From positions 49,190 to 113,189 of the forward strand of contig NZ_SOZE01000005.1 in NCBI RefSeq assembly GCF_004519315.1: a stretch of 64,000 nucleotides of DNA, written 5' to 3'. This document shows, one piece after another, positions 1 to 9,715 of the stretch. Positions within the stretch are counted from its first letter, which is position 1. Each line of letters begins with the position of its first letter. This DNA comes from Mucilaginibacter psychrotolerans. GTDB taxonomy: Bacteria; Bacteroidota; Bacteroidia; Sphingobacteriales; Sphingobacteriaceae. A model generated the notes under the pieces. It worked only from the letters and a program-made list of their open reading frames with translations, was not told the DNA's origin and did no database searches. A program made the translations under genes and the position numbers.

Positions 1-122
1 TTGCAACTTATCCGTTCCATAAATGAAACGGCAATGAAGGTGCATCAATTTATCACTATAGGATTTACGCCCATCACTGCAAACCAACCTTCATTGCCGT
101 CGACTTTAGTCGACGGAATACA
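1..122. repeat. 122-bp intergenic direct repeat, copy 1
   Basis: Bases 1-122 recur without a visible mismatch at 195-316. Each copy ends in the perfect inverted repeat CCGTCGACTTTAGTCGACGG (97-116 here), an 8-bp stem with a TTTA loop, preceded by TTCATTG. The element may begin before the window. Variants of the short string GGCAATGAAGGT occur several times in the first 200 bases in both orientations. A related palindrome lies at 10166-10183, so this belongs to a dispersed family. No gene is supported here; short open frames through the copies are repeat translations. Confidence 0.85.
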
Positions 123-194
123 ATGGAACGGGAATGAAGGTGAATTGCTTTTTACTATACTTGATTTAAGCCTATCACCGCAAACCCAGCTTCA

Positions 195-316
195 TTGCAA
201 CTTATCCGTTCCATAAATGAAACGGCAATGAAGGTGCATCAATTTATCACTATAGGATTTACGCCCATCACTGCAAACCAACCTTCATTGCCGTCGACTT
301 TAGTCGACGGAATACA
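195..316. repeat. 122-bp intergenic direct repeat, copy 2
   Basis: Second copy of the element at 1-122, offset by 194 bases, with its palindrome at 291-310. The 72 bases between the copies contain a partial match to the same GGAATGAAGGT string, so the array may be an eroded multi-copy tract. It is not a CRISPR: two long units, no regular spacers and no cas genes. Confidence 0.85.
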
Positions 317-627
317 GCTGCATTCGGGGTTAGCTAGTTTCAAATCAATCGGTAACTGCTTGACCACTATGCGCCGAACATTCGAGGTTTAAAACCCATC
401 GGTATATTGCAAATTATTTCATAAGCGATTTGCCGCAGATGCATTTAGAGGCTTACCACTATTAAGAATGAGTATTTATAAGCTCCTGAGATAATAATTT
501 ACCTGCAGGGCGTTTATAAGTGTATCGCAGCACAGATATGAAAACAATCCCTGTAAATCGTTTCCTGGCAGCTTTGCTTAAATTATCGAGATTATCGGTA
601 GTGCTGAGGTGGTTTAATAAATAGGGA
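317..627. other. Non-coding stretch before the toxin gene
   Basis: About 310 bases with no recognisable gene. An ATG at 538 opens a 28-codon frame ending at 624 with a basic, leucine-rich product, but nothing supports expression. This stretch is the 3' side of the leftward toxin-antitoxin pair, and I see no strong terminator hairpin. Confidence 0.4.
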
Positions 628-1089
628 TTATAGCTCATTAGCGAGCGAAAGCATTTCTTGCAATACTTCTTCGGAATACCAAAAATTAGTTTTTCGTATT
701 TTTTCGATTATCGGTCCTATGGCGGCGATGATGCCAGTTCGTTTTGCTTTTAAAAGTACGCCTAACGTTCCGGTAACGTGTAAATTTAATTTGCGTGCAG
801 CTTTTCGCCCTTTGTTGTCGTCTAAAATAAGAAGAGACGCTTCTGATTCTATCGCAAGTGCGATAGCACTGGCTTCACCAGCATCGATATCGAGCGAGTT
901 TTGAAAATGGGTATCTTTTACATTGTGTATTATTACCCATTTAGGTAGCGGTGTGCCAAACTCCTGTGCAATTACCGCTGTAGTAATTACTTGCCCAAAA
1001 AGAGCTTTTAAAAGTGTTAACTCACCAATTTTGTCGAGCAGTATAAAACAAGTGGTATCAGCAATAACTATCTTATATTCCGTCGGCAT
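628..1089 (-). CDS. PIN-like toxin, DUF3368 family
   Basis: A 153-residue protein resembling the DUF3368 branch of PIN-domain RNases, which act as toxins of type II toxin-antitoxin systems. Acidic residues expected of a PIN active site are visible: D11 in IADTTC, E43 in the VIAQEF segment, the D69-x-G-E72 segment and the LDD at 89-91. I chose the ATG at 1089 over an upstream start at 1155 because it overlaps the antitoxin stop by 17 bases, the usual coupled arrangement, and because the extra 22 residues would be an out-of-frame reading of the antitoxin. The substrate RNA is unknown. Function is inferred from family and gene order. Confidence 0.8.
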   Translation of the reverse strand: MPTEYKIVIADTTCFILLDKIGELTLLKALFGQVITTAVIAQEFGTPLPKWVIIHNVKDTHFQNSLDIDAGEASAIALAIESEASLLILDDNKGRKAARKLNLHVTGTLGVLLKAKRTGIIAAIGPIIEKIRKTNFWYSEEVLQEMLSLANEL

Positions 1090-1300
1090 CGCTAAGCATC
1101 TCAGAAACAGGATAATTTTGCAAGGAAACGCCATAATCGCCCAACAATTCAGCAAAAGTACGTTTGGATAAACTTGCCATATCGGCAGCCTGGCCCAAAG
1201 AAAGTTTGCCCGACTCGTACAATTTTGCAGCGATAAACCTCACGGTATCATTCTGATACTCGCCAAGGCTATCGGGTACTTGCAGGGTTATCGTTGTCAT
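1073..1300 (-). CDS. UPF0175-family antitoxin
   Basis: A 75-residue protein beginning MTTITLQVPDSLG, with the UPF0175 pattern: a short N-terminal strand, then a helical region around residues 28-55 (KLYESGKLSLGQAADMASLS) that resembles a helix-turn-helix or ribbon-helix DNA-binding part. UPF0175 proteins usually lie just upstream of DUF3368 toxins, as here, and are thought to neutralise them and repress the operon. The stop codon lies inside the start of the toxin gene, so the two are translationally coupled. A TATATTTA string just upstream on the minus strand could be the -7 box. Confidence 0.8.
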   Translation of the reverse strand: MTTITLQVPDSLGEYQNDTVRFIAAKLYESGKLSLGQAADMASLSKRTFAELLGDYGVSLQNYPVSEMLSDADGI

Positions 1301-1519: not shown

Positions 1520-2413
1520 CTACTGCTCCGCAGCTCTTTTAAGCCGCTGTTTTATACGCTTTGCAAAATGTTCGGGCGACAGCACTTTTACCTGGTCGCC
1601 ATAGCTTAGCAGTTCCATTTCCAGGTCGTAGTTGAGGCAGATGTTCAGCACGGTGAGTATCTCTCCATTCGGTCCTTTGATGTCGCGTTGGCTTTTGTGC
1701 AGCGGGTAGCTGGTAACGTACCGATGCTGCTGTTGCGAAAAGGCCAGTACCAATTCTTCGGGCTGCTGCCCATGGTACGGTGAGGTGATGCCGAAACAGT
1801 TTTCAAATAATTGCTGCGGGTTGTAGCTTTCGGGATAGTCGAACTTCTTTTTGGTAATCTCCAGCATGCTCATCCTATCCAGCCCGAATGTTTTGGTTTG
1901 CAAATCGGCCATATCCAGCGCCATCAGGTACCAGCGGCCTTTAAACTCCTTCATTGCATAAGGCTCGGCAAGGCGCTGGCTGTACGCTTCCTCATCAAAT
2001 TTTTGATACCTGAATTTCACCAACACGCACTTTTTAATGGCATTTAACAGGGGCTGAAAATGCGCCATACCCTGCGCCCGGCGATGATCGAACAATACCC
2101 TGCCGGCAAAATCTTCCGTTTGCAATACGGCATTCAGCAGCTCAAAGGCCTCCATGGCCTGCCGGCCAACTTCGGCAGGGGTGTTTACGATACGGTACAG
2201 CTTATCAGCAGGGTTATACGCAATATCAACCTTGTAATTATCCAATATTGCCTTTTTATCCCGTTGAAAAGTGCGATCCAAATATTTATCGCCATCGATA
2301 CACATCCTTGCCGCTATATACTCCCCTATTTGTTTCAAACTTGCACCAAGGCGCTTACTTTGAAGGAATTGGATAAGGGAAATGTGGCGGAGGATGGGGT
2401 GTAGGGCGGACAT
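1520..2413 (-). CDS. WYL-domain transcriptional regulator
   Basis: A 297-residue protein with an N-terminal helical, probably winged-helix DNA-binding segment (about residues 9-65) and a WYL domain around residues 125-205, recognisable by the GRWYLMALD core and a following LDRM segment. The C-terminal part (about 215-295) matches the WCX extension of these regulators. WYL proteins bind a ligand, often nucleic acid or a nucleotide, and act as repressors or activators. The gene lies 55 bases downstream of the FtsZ-like gene on the same strand, so the two may be co-transcribed and controlled from the palindrome at 3173-3191. The ligand is unknown. Confidence 0.85.
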   Translation of the reverse strand: MSALHPILRHISLIQFLQSKRLGASLKQIGEYIAARMCIDGDKYLDRTFQRDKKAILDNYKVDIAYNPADKLYRIVNTPAEVGRQAMEAFELLNAVLQTEDFAGRVLFDHRRAQGMAHFQPLLNAIKKCVLVKFRYQKFDEEAYSQRLAEPYAMKEFKGRWYLMALDMADLQTKTFGLDRMSMLEITKKKFDYPESYNPQQLFENCFGITSPYHGQQPEELVLAFSQQQHRYVTSYPLHKSQRDIKGPNGEILTVLNICLNYDLEMELLSYGDQVKVLSPEHFAKRIKQRLKRAAEQ

Positions 2414-2468: not shown

Positions 2469-3137
2469 CTATTCTCCCAGCATGGCGCTCATATTTTCAA
2501 TCAATATTTCATCCATTTTATGGTAGCATTCCTTTAAAAACAGGTTGGTATTTTTAAATATTTCGGGGAAGTACAAAACAGTTACCGGCACGCCCGCCTC
2601 CCTAATCACATTTACGCACTTTGCGGCTAAGTTGGTCCCGGTTGGGTGCCATGTAAACCCATAAGGCATGGATGCCACCACCCTTACCCGGTTACCAGGA
2701 ATTTTATCTAAATACTGCGCCAACATACAAGCCGCATGGCTACCTGTTTTACCGCCCATATTGGCCAGTAGGATAATATCACCAGTAATGTAGCTGGGCT
2801 GCGATTGAAAATATGGGCGGGCGATGTTGTGGTTCCAGTCGGCTGCTAATTGTTCTTCCAGCCTGCTTTGGTCCGGTAAAAAACGGCTGGTGATTTGCGA
2901 TTCGTACCAGCAGGTTATATTCCCCTCCGAATTAACATTATTTGTACTGTCGATGCCATGATAATTCACAGAAAAACGCAGATTTCCGCAGATTTTTGCG
3001 GCAATACGGCAGGCACTCGTGCCAACGCCGATGAGGCAAACTTTAGCCCCGGGTGGCTTGGGTTTTGTTGTGAATGGCCACACTAAACTGCCTGTTAGGG
3101 CGAGCGTGGTAGTGTTGAAAAAGTCTCGTCGTTTCAT
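2469..3137 (-). CDS. FtsZ/tubulin-like protein with Tat-type leader
   Basis: A 222-residue protein. After an N-terminal leader it shows the order of an FtsZ GTPase half: a glycine loop LIGVGTSACRIA at 35-46, a HGIDS strand at 60-64 that aligns with the FtsZ AVNTD region, the tubulin-signature-like NMGGKTGSHAA at 126-136, and RVRVVASMPYGF resembling the strand after the signature. The third glycine of the usual GGGTGS motif is lysine. The FtsZ C-terminal activation domain is absent. The leader MKRRDFFNTTTLALTG has the twin-arginine pattern and a hydrophobic stretch, suggesting export or membrane anchoring, which is odd for a GTP-binding fold. Not a cell-division FtsZ, which would be about 400 residues or more. 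Role unknown. Confidence 0.6.
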   Translation of the reverse strand: MKRRDFFNTTTLALTGSLVWPFTTKPKPPGAKVCLIGVGTSACRIAAKICGNLRFSVNYHGIDSTNNVNSEGNITCWYESQITSRFLPDQSRLEEQLAADWNHNIARPYFQSQPSYITGDIILLANMGGKTGSHAACMLAQYLDKIPGNRVRVVASMPYGFTWHPTGTNLAAKCVNVIREAGVPVTVLYFPEIFKNTNLFLKECYHKMDEILIENMSAMLGE

Positions 3138-3155: not shown

Positions 3156-3191
3156 CAAAATTAGGGGCCATGTACGACAAACCGTGTCGTA
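3156..3191 (-). promoter_or_regulatory. Promoter and palindromic operator of the FtsZ-like gene
   Basis: On the minus strand TAATTTTG (3163-3156) is a perfect Bacteroidota -7 box, about 20 bases before the start codon at 3137. Just upstream lies the perfect inverted repeat TACGACA-N5-TGTCGTA (3173-3191), placed where a regulator would meet the -33 region. The adjacent WYL regulator is a natural candidate to bind it; that link is inference. Confidence 0.6.
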
Positions 3192-7755: not shown

Positions 7756-8400
7756 TCAATAACCCGTCTTAATTTTGTAATCGCCGTTCTTTTGTATAAT
7801 CACACCTACCGGAATACCCAAATCAGTCGCCGGGATGGAAAGGGAATAACTCACCTCAAAGCTATCTTCATCGTTACGATGCGACACACCCGGCCCCAAA
7901 AGGCTGCCATATTTTTTTAAGGCCCCAACAAATGGGTCTTTAAAAAACGGGTAAAAATCTTTGGCGGTAAATTGCTTGTTTAAAACGGTATCAGTGCCGT
8001 TTAGTAATATCACATTAGACACAAAAGGATGGGTTATAAAATCTGTTGGATTTTCGGCATCATAATACCTTTTTGGGATTACGATATTACTATCCTTTAA
8101 ACAGTAATATTTCACACGCAATCCAATGCGTTCTTTGCCGCTATCGAAAACGGTGTCTATAACCTCCACGTTATCGTAAGTGCCTTCCAGCCGTATCCGC
8201 TCTTCCGCCTGTGATGGGGTAATGTCGTCACTCGCCAGCCCTATGCTATCATCTTGTGCTATCGGGGGCTTAGTCGATTTAACCGTACCACTATCAGTTG
8301 CTTGGCCCCGTTCTTTTACATTGCTACTGCAACTTGCAAACAGCACAATTGATAAAAAGGTAATAATTTTACCGAATACAGGTTTAAGTTTAATACTCAT
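7756..8400 (-). CDS. Hypothetical lipoprotein
   Basis: A 214-residue protein with a lipoprotein signal: hydrophobic stretch then LFASC with the lipobox cysteine near residue 24, followed by a low-complexity polar linker to about residue 60. The remainder has alternating strands and a YYDAENPTDFITHPFVSN segment that I do not recognise. The C-terminus (LGIPVGVIIQKNGDYKIKTGY) is strand-like. Most likely anchored in a membrane facing the periplasm. Single gene, convergent with the DUF4369 gene. Function unknown. Confidence 0.65.
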   Translation of the reverse strand: MSIKLKPVFGKIITFLSIVLFASCSSNVKERGQATDSGTVKSTKPPIAQDDSIGLASDDITPSQAEERIRLEGTYDNVEVIDTVFDSGKERIGLRVKYYCLKDSNIVIPKRYYDAENPTDFITHPFVSNVILLNGTDTVLNKQFTAKDFYPFFKDPFVGALKKYGSLLGPGVSHRNDEDSFEVSYSLSIPATDLGIPVGVIIQKNGDYKIKTGY

Positions 8401-8619
8401 TGATTTGAATTTGTAATTGAGGCTTATGGGTACTAAAATACAAAATTAGGCTTTAAAATGCATTGTGGATTTGGAAGTGGAGAGAAAAGACGGTAGGGCA
8501 TTATGCATTTATTCGGGTTTCCGAAGGTCGATTTCGGATTTGGCATTTCAGCAATTCTTCCCTCTGCCACACGTGTCCCCACCGTATGCAAGGTTGTCGA
8601 TTGTAAGGCCGCTCTGCTT

Positions 8620-8772
8620 GCATAGAGATTGCTTCGTGCCTCGCAATGACGATGTGGTGATGAGGGGTGGCGATTAGATGCTTCATTTTAGCACATGCCC
8701 GCGTTAACTAAACCCGATAGCAGCGTAAAAGCGCTTCTATCAGTGGCTAGCAGCGAATAGCGGGGCTGGCGG
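8620..8772. repeat. Composite dispersed repeat, copy A
   Basis: It has two parts. At 8620-8652 lies AGATTGCTTCGTGCCTCGCA plus ATGACG, a widespread bacterial intergenic repeat that translates on the minus strand as VIARHEAIS. At 8691-8772 lies an 82-base core (GCACATGCCCGCGTTAACTA and onwards) that recurs at 10039-10120. The core contains GATAGCAGCG and a matching CGCTTCTATC, able to form a hairpin. The open frame on the minus strand at 8501-8686 is only repeat translation. Confidence 0.7.
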
Positions 8773-8782
8773 AACTAAGGTG

Positions 8783-9715
8783 CTACTCCCCTGCTAAAAA
8801 ACTCAGCATTGCTGTAAACTTGTCCGTTGGGTAAAATTGGATGGTATTATCTTCAATTTTATAGGGCAAATCCTCAAACCCTTGGTTTGTGTACCACAGC
8901 AAGGAGTTGCTGATAGAACCCGGACCTTCCTGGTTCATGCCGTTTATGAGCGGTATCAGTTTATTGATGGCATTTACTACATCAATATCGTTTATAGGGT
9001 AAATGATTGCGCCATGCCTGTGCGGTATGCCTATGAGCGAGCCATGCGCCCCTATCAGCTGAGGATAGTTCTCCAGATGGAAAACGATATTGCCGGTAAA
9101 AAAGTGGTCGCCTTCTGCAAGCCAGATAATAGTTCCGTCGAAATCTTCCTGAAAGGTGCTTATCGGGCAATTTGCCTTCACGTTGCTGATACCGGTAGCT
9201 ATTAGTTCCTCAAACCCCTGGTCCCATTCCTGCCCCTGCTCGGGTGTTATTGAGCTGATACCATCGGGCAAATCGAAGACTAGCGCCATGTAGATATTAG
9301 CCACAAAATGTTTGCCGATAGTGTTCTCCTTACCTACTGCGGAAAAGTAAACTTCATCATATAACCGTACTGCGAGGTATTGTTTCACCTCCTCATAATT
9401 GCCAATTACCTTTCGGAACTCTTTATCGAATTTATTCGCACGGATCATGGTTTCGAAGTGGTCGTTAACCACTTGGCTGTATGTCCTATCCTCATCAAAC
9501 TTGCACATCTGGGCAACATTCACCAAGCCCAGCCTGTCGAATTCGAAATCGTTAGGGCCTGCAACTATCTCGCCATCACCCATGATGTAGGTAATGTTTT
9601 TATCATAGAAGTATTTTTCTATTTCTTTTAAGAAACTGGTGTACTCATCAGGCTTGAAAAACGATGCCCAGTTGGGCACTTCAGGCTGTTTTTTTCGTTT
9701 CAGGAAGGAAAACAT
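8783..9715 (-). CDS. Conserved hypothetical protein, possibly DUF1444-like
   Basis: A 310-residue cytoplasmic-looking protein with a basic N-terminus (MFSFLKRKKQPEV), no signal peptide and mixed alpha/beta character. Distinctive segments are FVANIYMALVFDLPDGI (about 138-154) and HGSLIGIPHRHGAIIYPI (about 225-242). The latter recalls the DUF1444/YtpQ-type pattern of proteins that score a stored value against a measured one, but the match is weak. It stands alone between two copies of the same dispersed repeat. Function unknown. Confidence 0.6.
   Translation of the reverse strand: MFSFLKRKKQPEVPNWASFFKPDEYTSFLKEIEKYFYDKNITYIMGDGEIVAGPNDFEFDRLGLVNVAQMCKFDEDRTYSQVVNDHFETMIRANKFDKEFRKVIGNYEEVKQYLAVRLYDEVYFSAVGKENTIGKHFVANIYMALVFDLPDGISSITPEQGQEWDQGFEELIATGISNVKANCPISTFQEDFDGTIIWLAEGDHFFTGNIVFHLENYPQLIGAHGSLIGIPHRHGAIIYPINDIDVVNAINKLIPLINGMNQEGPGSISNSLLWYTNQGFEDLPYKIEDNTIQFYPTDKFTAMLSFLAGE

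Follow-up and report, generated by a model that had tools for sequence, protein, structure and literature searches.

The window analysed here, a stretch of 64,000 nucleotides from the genome of Mucilaginibacter psychrotolerans, carries a real gene for one half of the division protein FtsZ, and 13 further genes of this type were found in Bacteroidota, giving a total of 14 genes in 13 genomes. Sequence comparisons and structural models together demonstrate the FtsZ fold, the truncation, an export-type leader and a linkage to WYL regulator genes. The best reading of these comparisons is that the half would be an FtsZ-derived accessory protein of defence islands, linked to WYL regulators and unable to polymerise like FtsZ. 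In its full form, which we put forward tentatively, an FtsZ N-terminal domain now standing on its own parted from the division machinery and serves as an accessory gene in Bacteroidota, often within defence islands, with a proposed WYL-regulated, Tat-delivered action at the envelope. This suggests that bacteria reused a piece of the division machinery for another job. Tubulins and FtsZ are familiar as polymers of the cytoplasm; a family reduced to the nucleotide-binding domain, with the T7 side lost, partly equipped with an export-type leader and often located amid defence genes, would widen the roles of this fold and tie division proteins to bacterial immunity in a concrete way. A search of the open-access literature found no description of FtsZ with a Tat leader or of N-domain-only FtsZ in defence islands; PMC10799925 contains neither FtsZ nor tubulin, and the available part of PMC9871819 makes no mention of such a half-FtsZ family.

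The half-FtsZ open reading frame runs from ATG to stop and encodes 222 aa. Its features and those of its surroundings, in window coordinates, are as follows.

628-1155, minus strand: PIN/DUF3368 gene, likely toxin, beside the UPF0175 gene (domain match).
1073-1300, minus strand: UPF0175 gene, a likely antitoxin, part of the small accessory stretch that also holds half-FtsZ (domain match).
1520-2413, minus strand: WYL-WCX transcriptional regulator gene, codirectional with half-FtsZ and 55 bp downstream of it (open reading frame; WYL domain E 2.5e-14, WCX domain E 1.3e-10).
2469-3137, minus strand: half-FtsZ gene, leader plus FtsZ N-terminal nucleotide-binding domain ending inside helix H7 (sequence, models, profiles).
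2475-2537, minus strand: truncated helix H7, residues 201-221, at the protein end (window model, structural and sequence alignments).
2655-2669, minus strand: T5 region MPYGF, residues 157-161, corresponding to FtsZ PFxFEG (alignment).
2739-2762, minus strand: T4 signature NMGGKTGS, residues 126-133, with lysine for the third glycine of GGGTG (alignments).
3000-3029, minus strand: T1 glycine loop GVGTSACRIA, residues 37-46, degenerate relative to FtsZ GVGGGGxNAV (alignment).
3057-3137, minus strand: twin-arginine type leader MKRRDFFNTTTLALTGSLVWPFTTKPK, about residues 1-27 (sequence, RR-plus-uncharged-stretch test).
3156-3163, minus strand: TAATTTTG, promoter-box candidate 19-26 nt before the half-FtsZ ATG (sequence).
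3173-3191, plus strand: perfect palindrome TACGACA-N5-TGTCGTA, candidate operator 35 bp before the half-FtsZ start codon.

The N-terminus of the window protein carries MKRRDFFNTTTLALTG, and NMGGKTGSHAA is present from residue 126. The sequence TAATTTTG matches the pattern of the Bacteroidota -7 promoter box, TAnnTTTG. At the left end of the window (1-392), two overlapping open reading frames have an identical 41-aa start, which suggests a tandem DNA repeat of about 194 bp.

Direct comparison of the window protein with FtsZ is weak and, when alone, is a hint only. The Pfam Tubulin model matches residues 121-181 at 20.2 bits (cutoff 33; E 7.7e-4), the top match of phmmer against PDB is FtsZ, with E 0.062, and the protein reaches E 0.017 with a profile built from 12 FtsZ N-domains. 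With a profile of 12 halves from which the window protein was left out, it reaches E 9.9e-12 (Z 4000), whereas none of 1000 shuffles did better than E 2.1, and the same profile scores 12 Bacteroidota FtsZ N-domains, 11 from half-bearing genomes and one from G453, at 2e-27 to 3e-23. In the reverse test, the FtsZ N-domain profile detected 11 of the 13 halves with E values no higher than 2.3e-4; the window protein (0.017) and L072 (0.18) are not clearly set off from chance, because the best shuffle reached 0.28 (1300 made, 808 reported). When eight halves, including the window protein, were combined into a profile and compared with PDB, 53 matches were obtained at E 0.01, 49 of them labelled FtsZ (5.7e-16 to 9e-7), followed by CetZ (4b46), RepX, one unrelated potassium-uptake protein (1.2e-3) and TubZ. 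TubZ/RepX and CetZ belong to the same tubulin superfamily and are distant profile and fold matches to the halves, but they are full-length and their profile matches are weaker than those of FtsZ (E 5e-4 to 2e-3 versus 6e-16).

AlphaFold2 models, built with eight sequences, were compared with known structures for the window protein and for L066, a relative from a Flavobacteriales MAG. The L066 model (pLDDT 81.2, pTM 0.78) retrieved FtsZ in Foldseek at E 1.1e-9 and aligned with FtsZ 1w5f_A at Z 21.2 and rmsd 2.6 over 178 residues. For the window model (pLDDT 61.6, pTM 0.63), the best Foldseek match was FtsZ at 2.3e-3, with none under 0.001 and other folds close behind; a second structural comparison gave Z 11.6, rmsd 3.6 and 154 aligned residues, and all 50 listed matches were FtsZ or CetZ. 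Both structural alignments stop within H7, short of the T7 loop, at residue 199-200 of FtsZ as numbered in E. coli and B. subtilis. The original prediction had claimed an FtsZ/tubulin GTPase fold lacking its C-terminal half; with these Z scores and the half-family profiles in agreement, an N-terminal nucleotide-binding domain with the FtsZ fold was found in both proteins, and the loss is common to the family.

None of the 14 halves has the T7 loop or the C-terminal domain; 12 of them end in or just after H7, and L155 and L178 add short tails. Measurement of C-terminal amphipathic tails revealed no clear common tether, and the basic, tryptophan-containing tail of L178 is only suggestive of one. 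The T3 loop is missing in 12 of the 13 members where it is readable; L178 has it. Alignments show a variable T1 with the GxG turn kept. The T4 loop keeps LGGxTG with its third glycine replaced in 13 of 14 members (tyrosine six times, lysine three times, and histidine, glutamate, arginine and a degenerate loop once each), glycine being kept only in L178; in L152 and L153 much of this signature is lost. The lysine that had been read as replacing a signature glycine in the window protein is indeed there (GGKTGS, so that GGGTG(S/T)G is not intact) and is part of this family-wide replacement. Most halves keep the T5 stretch PFxFEG and the GN(L)xxAFxKA run into H7. These two stretches, together with the fold and the T1/T4/T5 positions, constitute the likeness to FtsZ (TIGR00065; PF00091), from which the halves differ by the losses described and by a twin-arginine leader in some members. 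The eight members scanned, including the window protein (L178 was among those left out), are far below the TIGR00065 cutoff of 295 bits: the window protein gave no match and the best of the seven relatives reached 68.5 bits.

Divergent FtsZ-like proteins with a scattered distribution, FtsZl1 (Tubulin_2, PF13809) and FtsZl2, were described previously (Makarova and Koonin 2010, PMC2875224). According to the accessible part of that paper, FtsZl1 resembles the halves in having no clear T6-H7, as well as in its distribution, but it carries a coiled coil and a helical C-terminal domain and occurs in a vWA/kinase/OmpA context, neither of which the halves have; FtsZl2 has a C-terminal region of about 300 aa that is likewise missing from them. 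PF13809 gave no match to the window protein up to E 10, and this protein, ending at 222 aa, has no room for the FtsZl1 C-terminal part. L156 matches PF13809 weakly, at 18.6 bits (cutoff 27).

The family was assembled from genome-contig, class and order searches, rechecks of genomes with two or more matches, and the stretches around matches. At E 1e-3, the window protein has no relative in the 148 further genomes of its genus that were searched, and a single one in 300 other genomes drawn from the family, which gives a prevalence, window included, of 1/149 and 2/301, respectively. The relative is the 169-aa protein P0002 of Sphingobacterium, which matches FtsZ in its own right; starting from it, additional short frames were found in the class. 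The members besides the window gene are L066 (P0003); L067 and L153, both in Marinilabiliaceae ANBcel2 (G835); L068 (P0004), from the Bacteroidetes MAG SZAS-5; L069, from Perlabentimonas gracilis; L070, from a Salinivirgaceae MAG, with the gene cut by the contig end; L071 (P0002) and L072, from Sphingobacterium; and L152, L154, L155, L156 and L178, from genomes G473, G894, G962, G1004 and G919, respectively. Short types occur in at least 3 of 395 class genomes and at least 5 of 228 order genomes, both lower bounds (the P0003 query at E 1e-6 missed the window protein itself). Most class and order matches were ordinary FtsZ by frame length and were left out of the count, as were possible contig-edge short frames (e.g., G896, G922, G975, G995, G1055, G657 and G431) and a 40-residue match in G453. 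A short frame in G590 (L007) was, on inspection, a cut canonical FtsZ.

A pattern scan of genome contigs with the window protein alone found no relatives, and neither did pattern scans of viral contigs with P0002, A6, A5 and A10. Searched with tblastn, phages and plasmids gave no match to the window protein at E 1, and plasmids none to P0002 (E 1) or to L067 and L069 (E 0.01). As these viral-contig, phage and plasmid searches were empty, there is no sign of phage carriage of the halves. Scanning five halves against PHROGs gave one weak match only (P0002, unknown function, E 0.009), and a PADLOC scan of two halves, those of the window and L066, gave no match to a model.

The relationships among members are difficult to read. 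A tree of the halves, made before L178 was found, has eight very long branches, with joins of long branches flagged, and is unusable for history. In none of its 200 bootstrap trees (0%) did the leader-bearing genes come out as one group, although, given the starred branches, they may still share an origin. L156 grouped with FtsZ in the tree and exceeds the Pfam cutoff at 49.4 bits, as does L066 at 43.7 bits. The nearest member to FtsZ is L178, with 173 bits versus 60 for the half profile and 106 bits in Pfam; it may be a separate truncation of FtsZ. Halves as fast-evolving cargo without a defence role, namely ftsZ fragments produced by truncation time and again, spread on mobile islands and briefly kept or decaying, while the islands collect defence and WYL neighbours, would be a rather unlikely yet serious account of such a family. 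It draws on the scattered distribution, the very long branches, the absence, by eye, of any gene order common to two loci, the eroded T4 signature of L152 and L153, and the position of L178. On the other hand, all 14 frames are open and stop without T7, nearly all of them at the same helix; the T3 loss, LGG[YK]TG and GN...AFxKA are common to most members, which also have a common profile; and the twin-arginine leader recurs. Random decay is disfavoured because these common features and the recurring leader would not survive it.

Of the two filament faces, the domain as bounded here retains the nucleotide face and lacks the T7 face. SulA and MciZ, inhibitors of FtsZ polymerisation, are not known to be FtsZ-like; the halves differ in being FtsZ-derived, and could work alike by blocking one filament face. 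A half would then be a cytoplasmic FtsZ poison, which would dock on the terminal FtsZ subunit at its T7 side, cap the filament and stop division during phage infection or DNA damage, the leader being only a membrane tether. The FtsZ GTPase site needs the T7 loop of the next subunit, as stated in the consulted section of PMC7327170; therefore, a half without T7 cannot complete a neighbour's site or serve as a filament subunit with two faces, and, judged from sequence, it should not form a normal filament. The same section describes the FtsZ N-domain as independently folding (PMC7327170), and an excerpt of PMC13423816 offers a precedent, since T7 Gp0.4 is predicted there to block the T7 side (synergy loop) of FtsZ similarly to SulA and MciZ. 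Potential partners for capping exist, with a long-frame FtsZ of 431-593 aa in 13 of 13 half-bearing genomes, and the leaderless members look cytoplasmic. In the window host G000, the FtsZ match lies at C24:358266-358796. Nevertheless, the absence of T3 and the degenerate T1/T4 of most members should weaken the very face meant to bind, and the twin-arginine leader would put the members that carry it outside the cytoplasm, away from FtsZ. We therefore regard capping as doubtful, and return to a WYL-linked accessory protein of defence islands.

WYL genes lie within 3 kb of the half in 5 of 14 loci: beside the window gene, at 24 bp and codirectional in L067, at 1.4 kb in L070, at 1.1 kb and divergent from the likely operon holding the half in L152, and at 1.7 kb on the same strand in L178. 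In L069, a WYL gene is found about 10 kb away on the same contig. Across 12 of the 13 half-bearing genomes (G919 left out), 23 WYL matches were counted, 0-4 in each. A WYL gene within 3 kb occurred at 4 of the 13 loci known then versus 0.04 expected (p 6e-8), a statistic for which the distance was chosen after the loci had been seen and which ignores a possible gathering of both gene kinds in islands; the fifth case, L178, was found later. In a tree of WYL proteins, the four linked ones tested form no clade and are scattered (row L176, the longest open reading frame of its stretch and not a WYL protein, was disregarded), so a dedicated, co-evolving WYL partner is not supported. The original prediction was largely right, with the fold, the leader, the missing half and the WYL neighbour borne out; the recurrence of this neighbour favours the proposed module.

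The palindrome at 3173-3191 is the only match of its kind in the window, where 0.09 are expected with up to 2 mismatches, and one appeared in 8 of 100 shuffles. Imperfect repeats of similar length occur in most control regions compared, and no motif common to these regions was seen; the palindrome is a candidate operator, not more. CapW, a WYL protein, represses CBASS operons and binds palindromes overlapping the -10 site of promoters, according to the part of PMC9122588 available, and BrxR, also a WYL protein, represses defence operons and binds inverted repeats, according to that of PMC9122601. The likeness to BrxR/BREX and CapW/CBASS consists of a WYL-WCX regulator beside the gene and a palindrome before its start, as well as BREX genes upstream in L152. 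The window differs in having no known effector or signal enzyme, and the linked WYL proteins are not one clade.

The surroundings of many relatives contain defence genes, a context beyond what could be seen from the window alone. Restriction, BREX, abortive-infection, toxin-antitoxin, PrrC-like or TIR genes are located within about 8 kb at 9 of 14 loci, a raw count without a control rate. These comprise PrrC-like AAA_13 (PADLOC candidate PDC-S06) and Fic in L066, AbiEi/AbiEii in L067, McrBC in L069, Mrr in L070, BREX PglZ and BrxL upstream and PDDEXK_4 downstream in L152, type I HsdM/S/R upstream and a PDDEXK_4 gene overlapping the start of the half in L153, CAP12-TIR in L156, and two GmrSD genes in L178. 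The window neighbourhood has, besides WYL, only the toxin-antitoxin pair (UPF0175/PIN). No defence gene was recognised at L068, L071, L072 and L154 in a partial neighbour scan, with several contigs short, and the neighbours of L155 lie outside the scan. L068 is neighboured by DUF932 and a TonB receptor, and L071 by a relaxase, a mobile element.

Two of these loci are worth describing in their own right. In L178 (3330-10847), GmrSD, GmrSD, half-FtsZ (with intact T3), a gene of 370 aa and unknown function, and WYL follow each other on one strand, an order that makes this stretch a compact candidate defence operon. In L152, a 319-aa gene without a Pfam or PADLOC match (8042-9001) lies directly upstream of the leader-bearing half, which is followed by PDDEXK_4; this row is divergent from WYL.

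Since some of the defence genes are directly adjacent to the half (PDDEXK_4 in L152 and L153, CAP12-TIR in L156, GmrSD in L178), a half could also be imagined as a decoy for phage proteins attacking FtsZ, guarded by neighbouring nucleases or TIR effectors. The excerpt of PMC13423816 reports that FtsZ bound by a phage protein can trigger an immune protein. However, Gp0.4 is predicted there to bind the synergy-loop (T7) side (PMC13423816), which the halves do not have, and exported forms could not meet cytoplasmic phage proteins; a decoy is thus very unlikely.

A twin-arginine leader is present in 5 of the 13 complete genes (window, L066, L067, L068 and L152), so four relatives bear out the one seen in the window; the other eight genes are without it, and Tat export is therefore not essential to the half-FtsZ family. 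Leaders were scored by RR in the first 16 residues followed by 13 uncharged residues with a mean hydropathy of 1.0 or more, a threshold set after leaders had been seen. Four of the 13 halves pass this test, in comparison with 1 of 197 other open reading frames (Fisher p 4e-5), the controls being the frames of 100 aa or more found in the window and 14 stretches, with overlaps counted once. The window leader passes, like three relatives; it has no AxA site and a modest hydropathy of 1.11. The L067 leader fails, as it contains only 12 uncharged residues. Alone, the window leader matches the Tat-signal profile PF10399 weakly and below the cutoff (E 0.011, 15.5 bits, cutoff 24), and among the five leaders only that of L068 passes the Pfam Tat model PF10518, and this only when the leader is taken by itself (23.8 bits, as against 20.1 in the whole protein). 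On the same contig, left of the window, a glycosidase-like protein (L158:4271-5344) has a Tat-like leader with KR for RR, MNKREFLKVGILTAAAAQLPLGSFA, and is a possible export comparison; because this leader scores just 12.7 bits, the Pfam Tat model may be insensitive here. TatC was detected in 11 of the 12 hosts searched (G919 left out), including all five with leaders, among them the window host G000 (E 3.6e-69), and was absent only in the MAG of L070.

The start sites of the leaderless L072 and L155 were chosen by us, the longer frames beginning with a hydrophobic stretch without RR that was cut off; if the longer starts are used, these two proteins could also have an N-terminal membrane segment. 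A WYL gene within 3 kb accompanies three of the five halves with a leader and one of the eight without (hand-calculated p about 0.12), and no claim is made on this basis. It is highly improbable that the leader is an artefact of a misplaced start, with a true start downstream at the GTG codon at residue 19 and a cytoplasmic protein resembling the leaderless relatives, as four divergent relatives also have an RR leader, spaced much alike from the first strand, the leader test is passed by a larger share of the halves than of other frames, and a TAnnTTTG box lies 19-26 nt before the ATG.

Leader-bearing forms of the half, as an accessory protein of defence islands, would thus probably go to the envelope by Tat. 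In the proposed mechanism, the WYL regulator would bind the upstream palindrome and keep the half-FtsZ gene off until a phage- or DNA-damage-linked cue, and the half would fold in the cytoplasm. Already folded, the leader-bearing half would then be delivered to the inner membrane on its periplasmic side, as suits the Tat pathway, which handles folded, cofactor-loaded proteins. There, at the envelope or the division site, it might act in a stress or anti-phage response. The boldest version, to which we give a rather low probability, is that of a tubulin-superfamily domain exported folded via Tat as a WYL-controlled anti-phage or stress effector outside the cytoplasm; it would be the first periplasmic tubulin-fold protein, a division piece turned into an immune component.

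Full-length FtsZ proteins were also encountered in these searches. A Marinomonas plasmid protein (NZ_CP061942) was rejected as a half, having GGGTGTG intact and running past H7; this full FtsZ-like protein (L064:7983-8945, NZ_CP061942.1) overlaps a PcfJ-domain gene near a type I restriction system. P0003 matched seven phage records, two of them annotated ftsZ; the one inspected, an unannotated fecal record, encodes a 437-aa canonical FtsZ beside an FtsA-like open reading frame. In the class search, four genomes gave two matches, among them G546 with two long frames. Within the set of rechecked genomes with two or more matches, 11 of 16 have neighbouring long-frame ftsZ genes, two or three in number, on a single contig, an arrangement unusual for bacteria; examples are G869:C11:30597-33839, G907:C83:7563-11015 and G983:C114:87281-90613, with eight more genomes.
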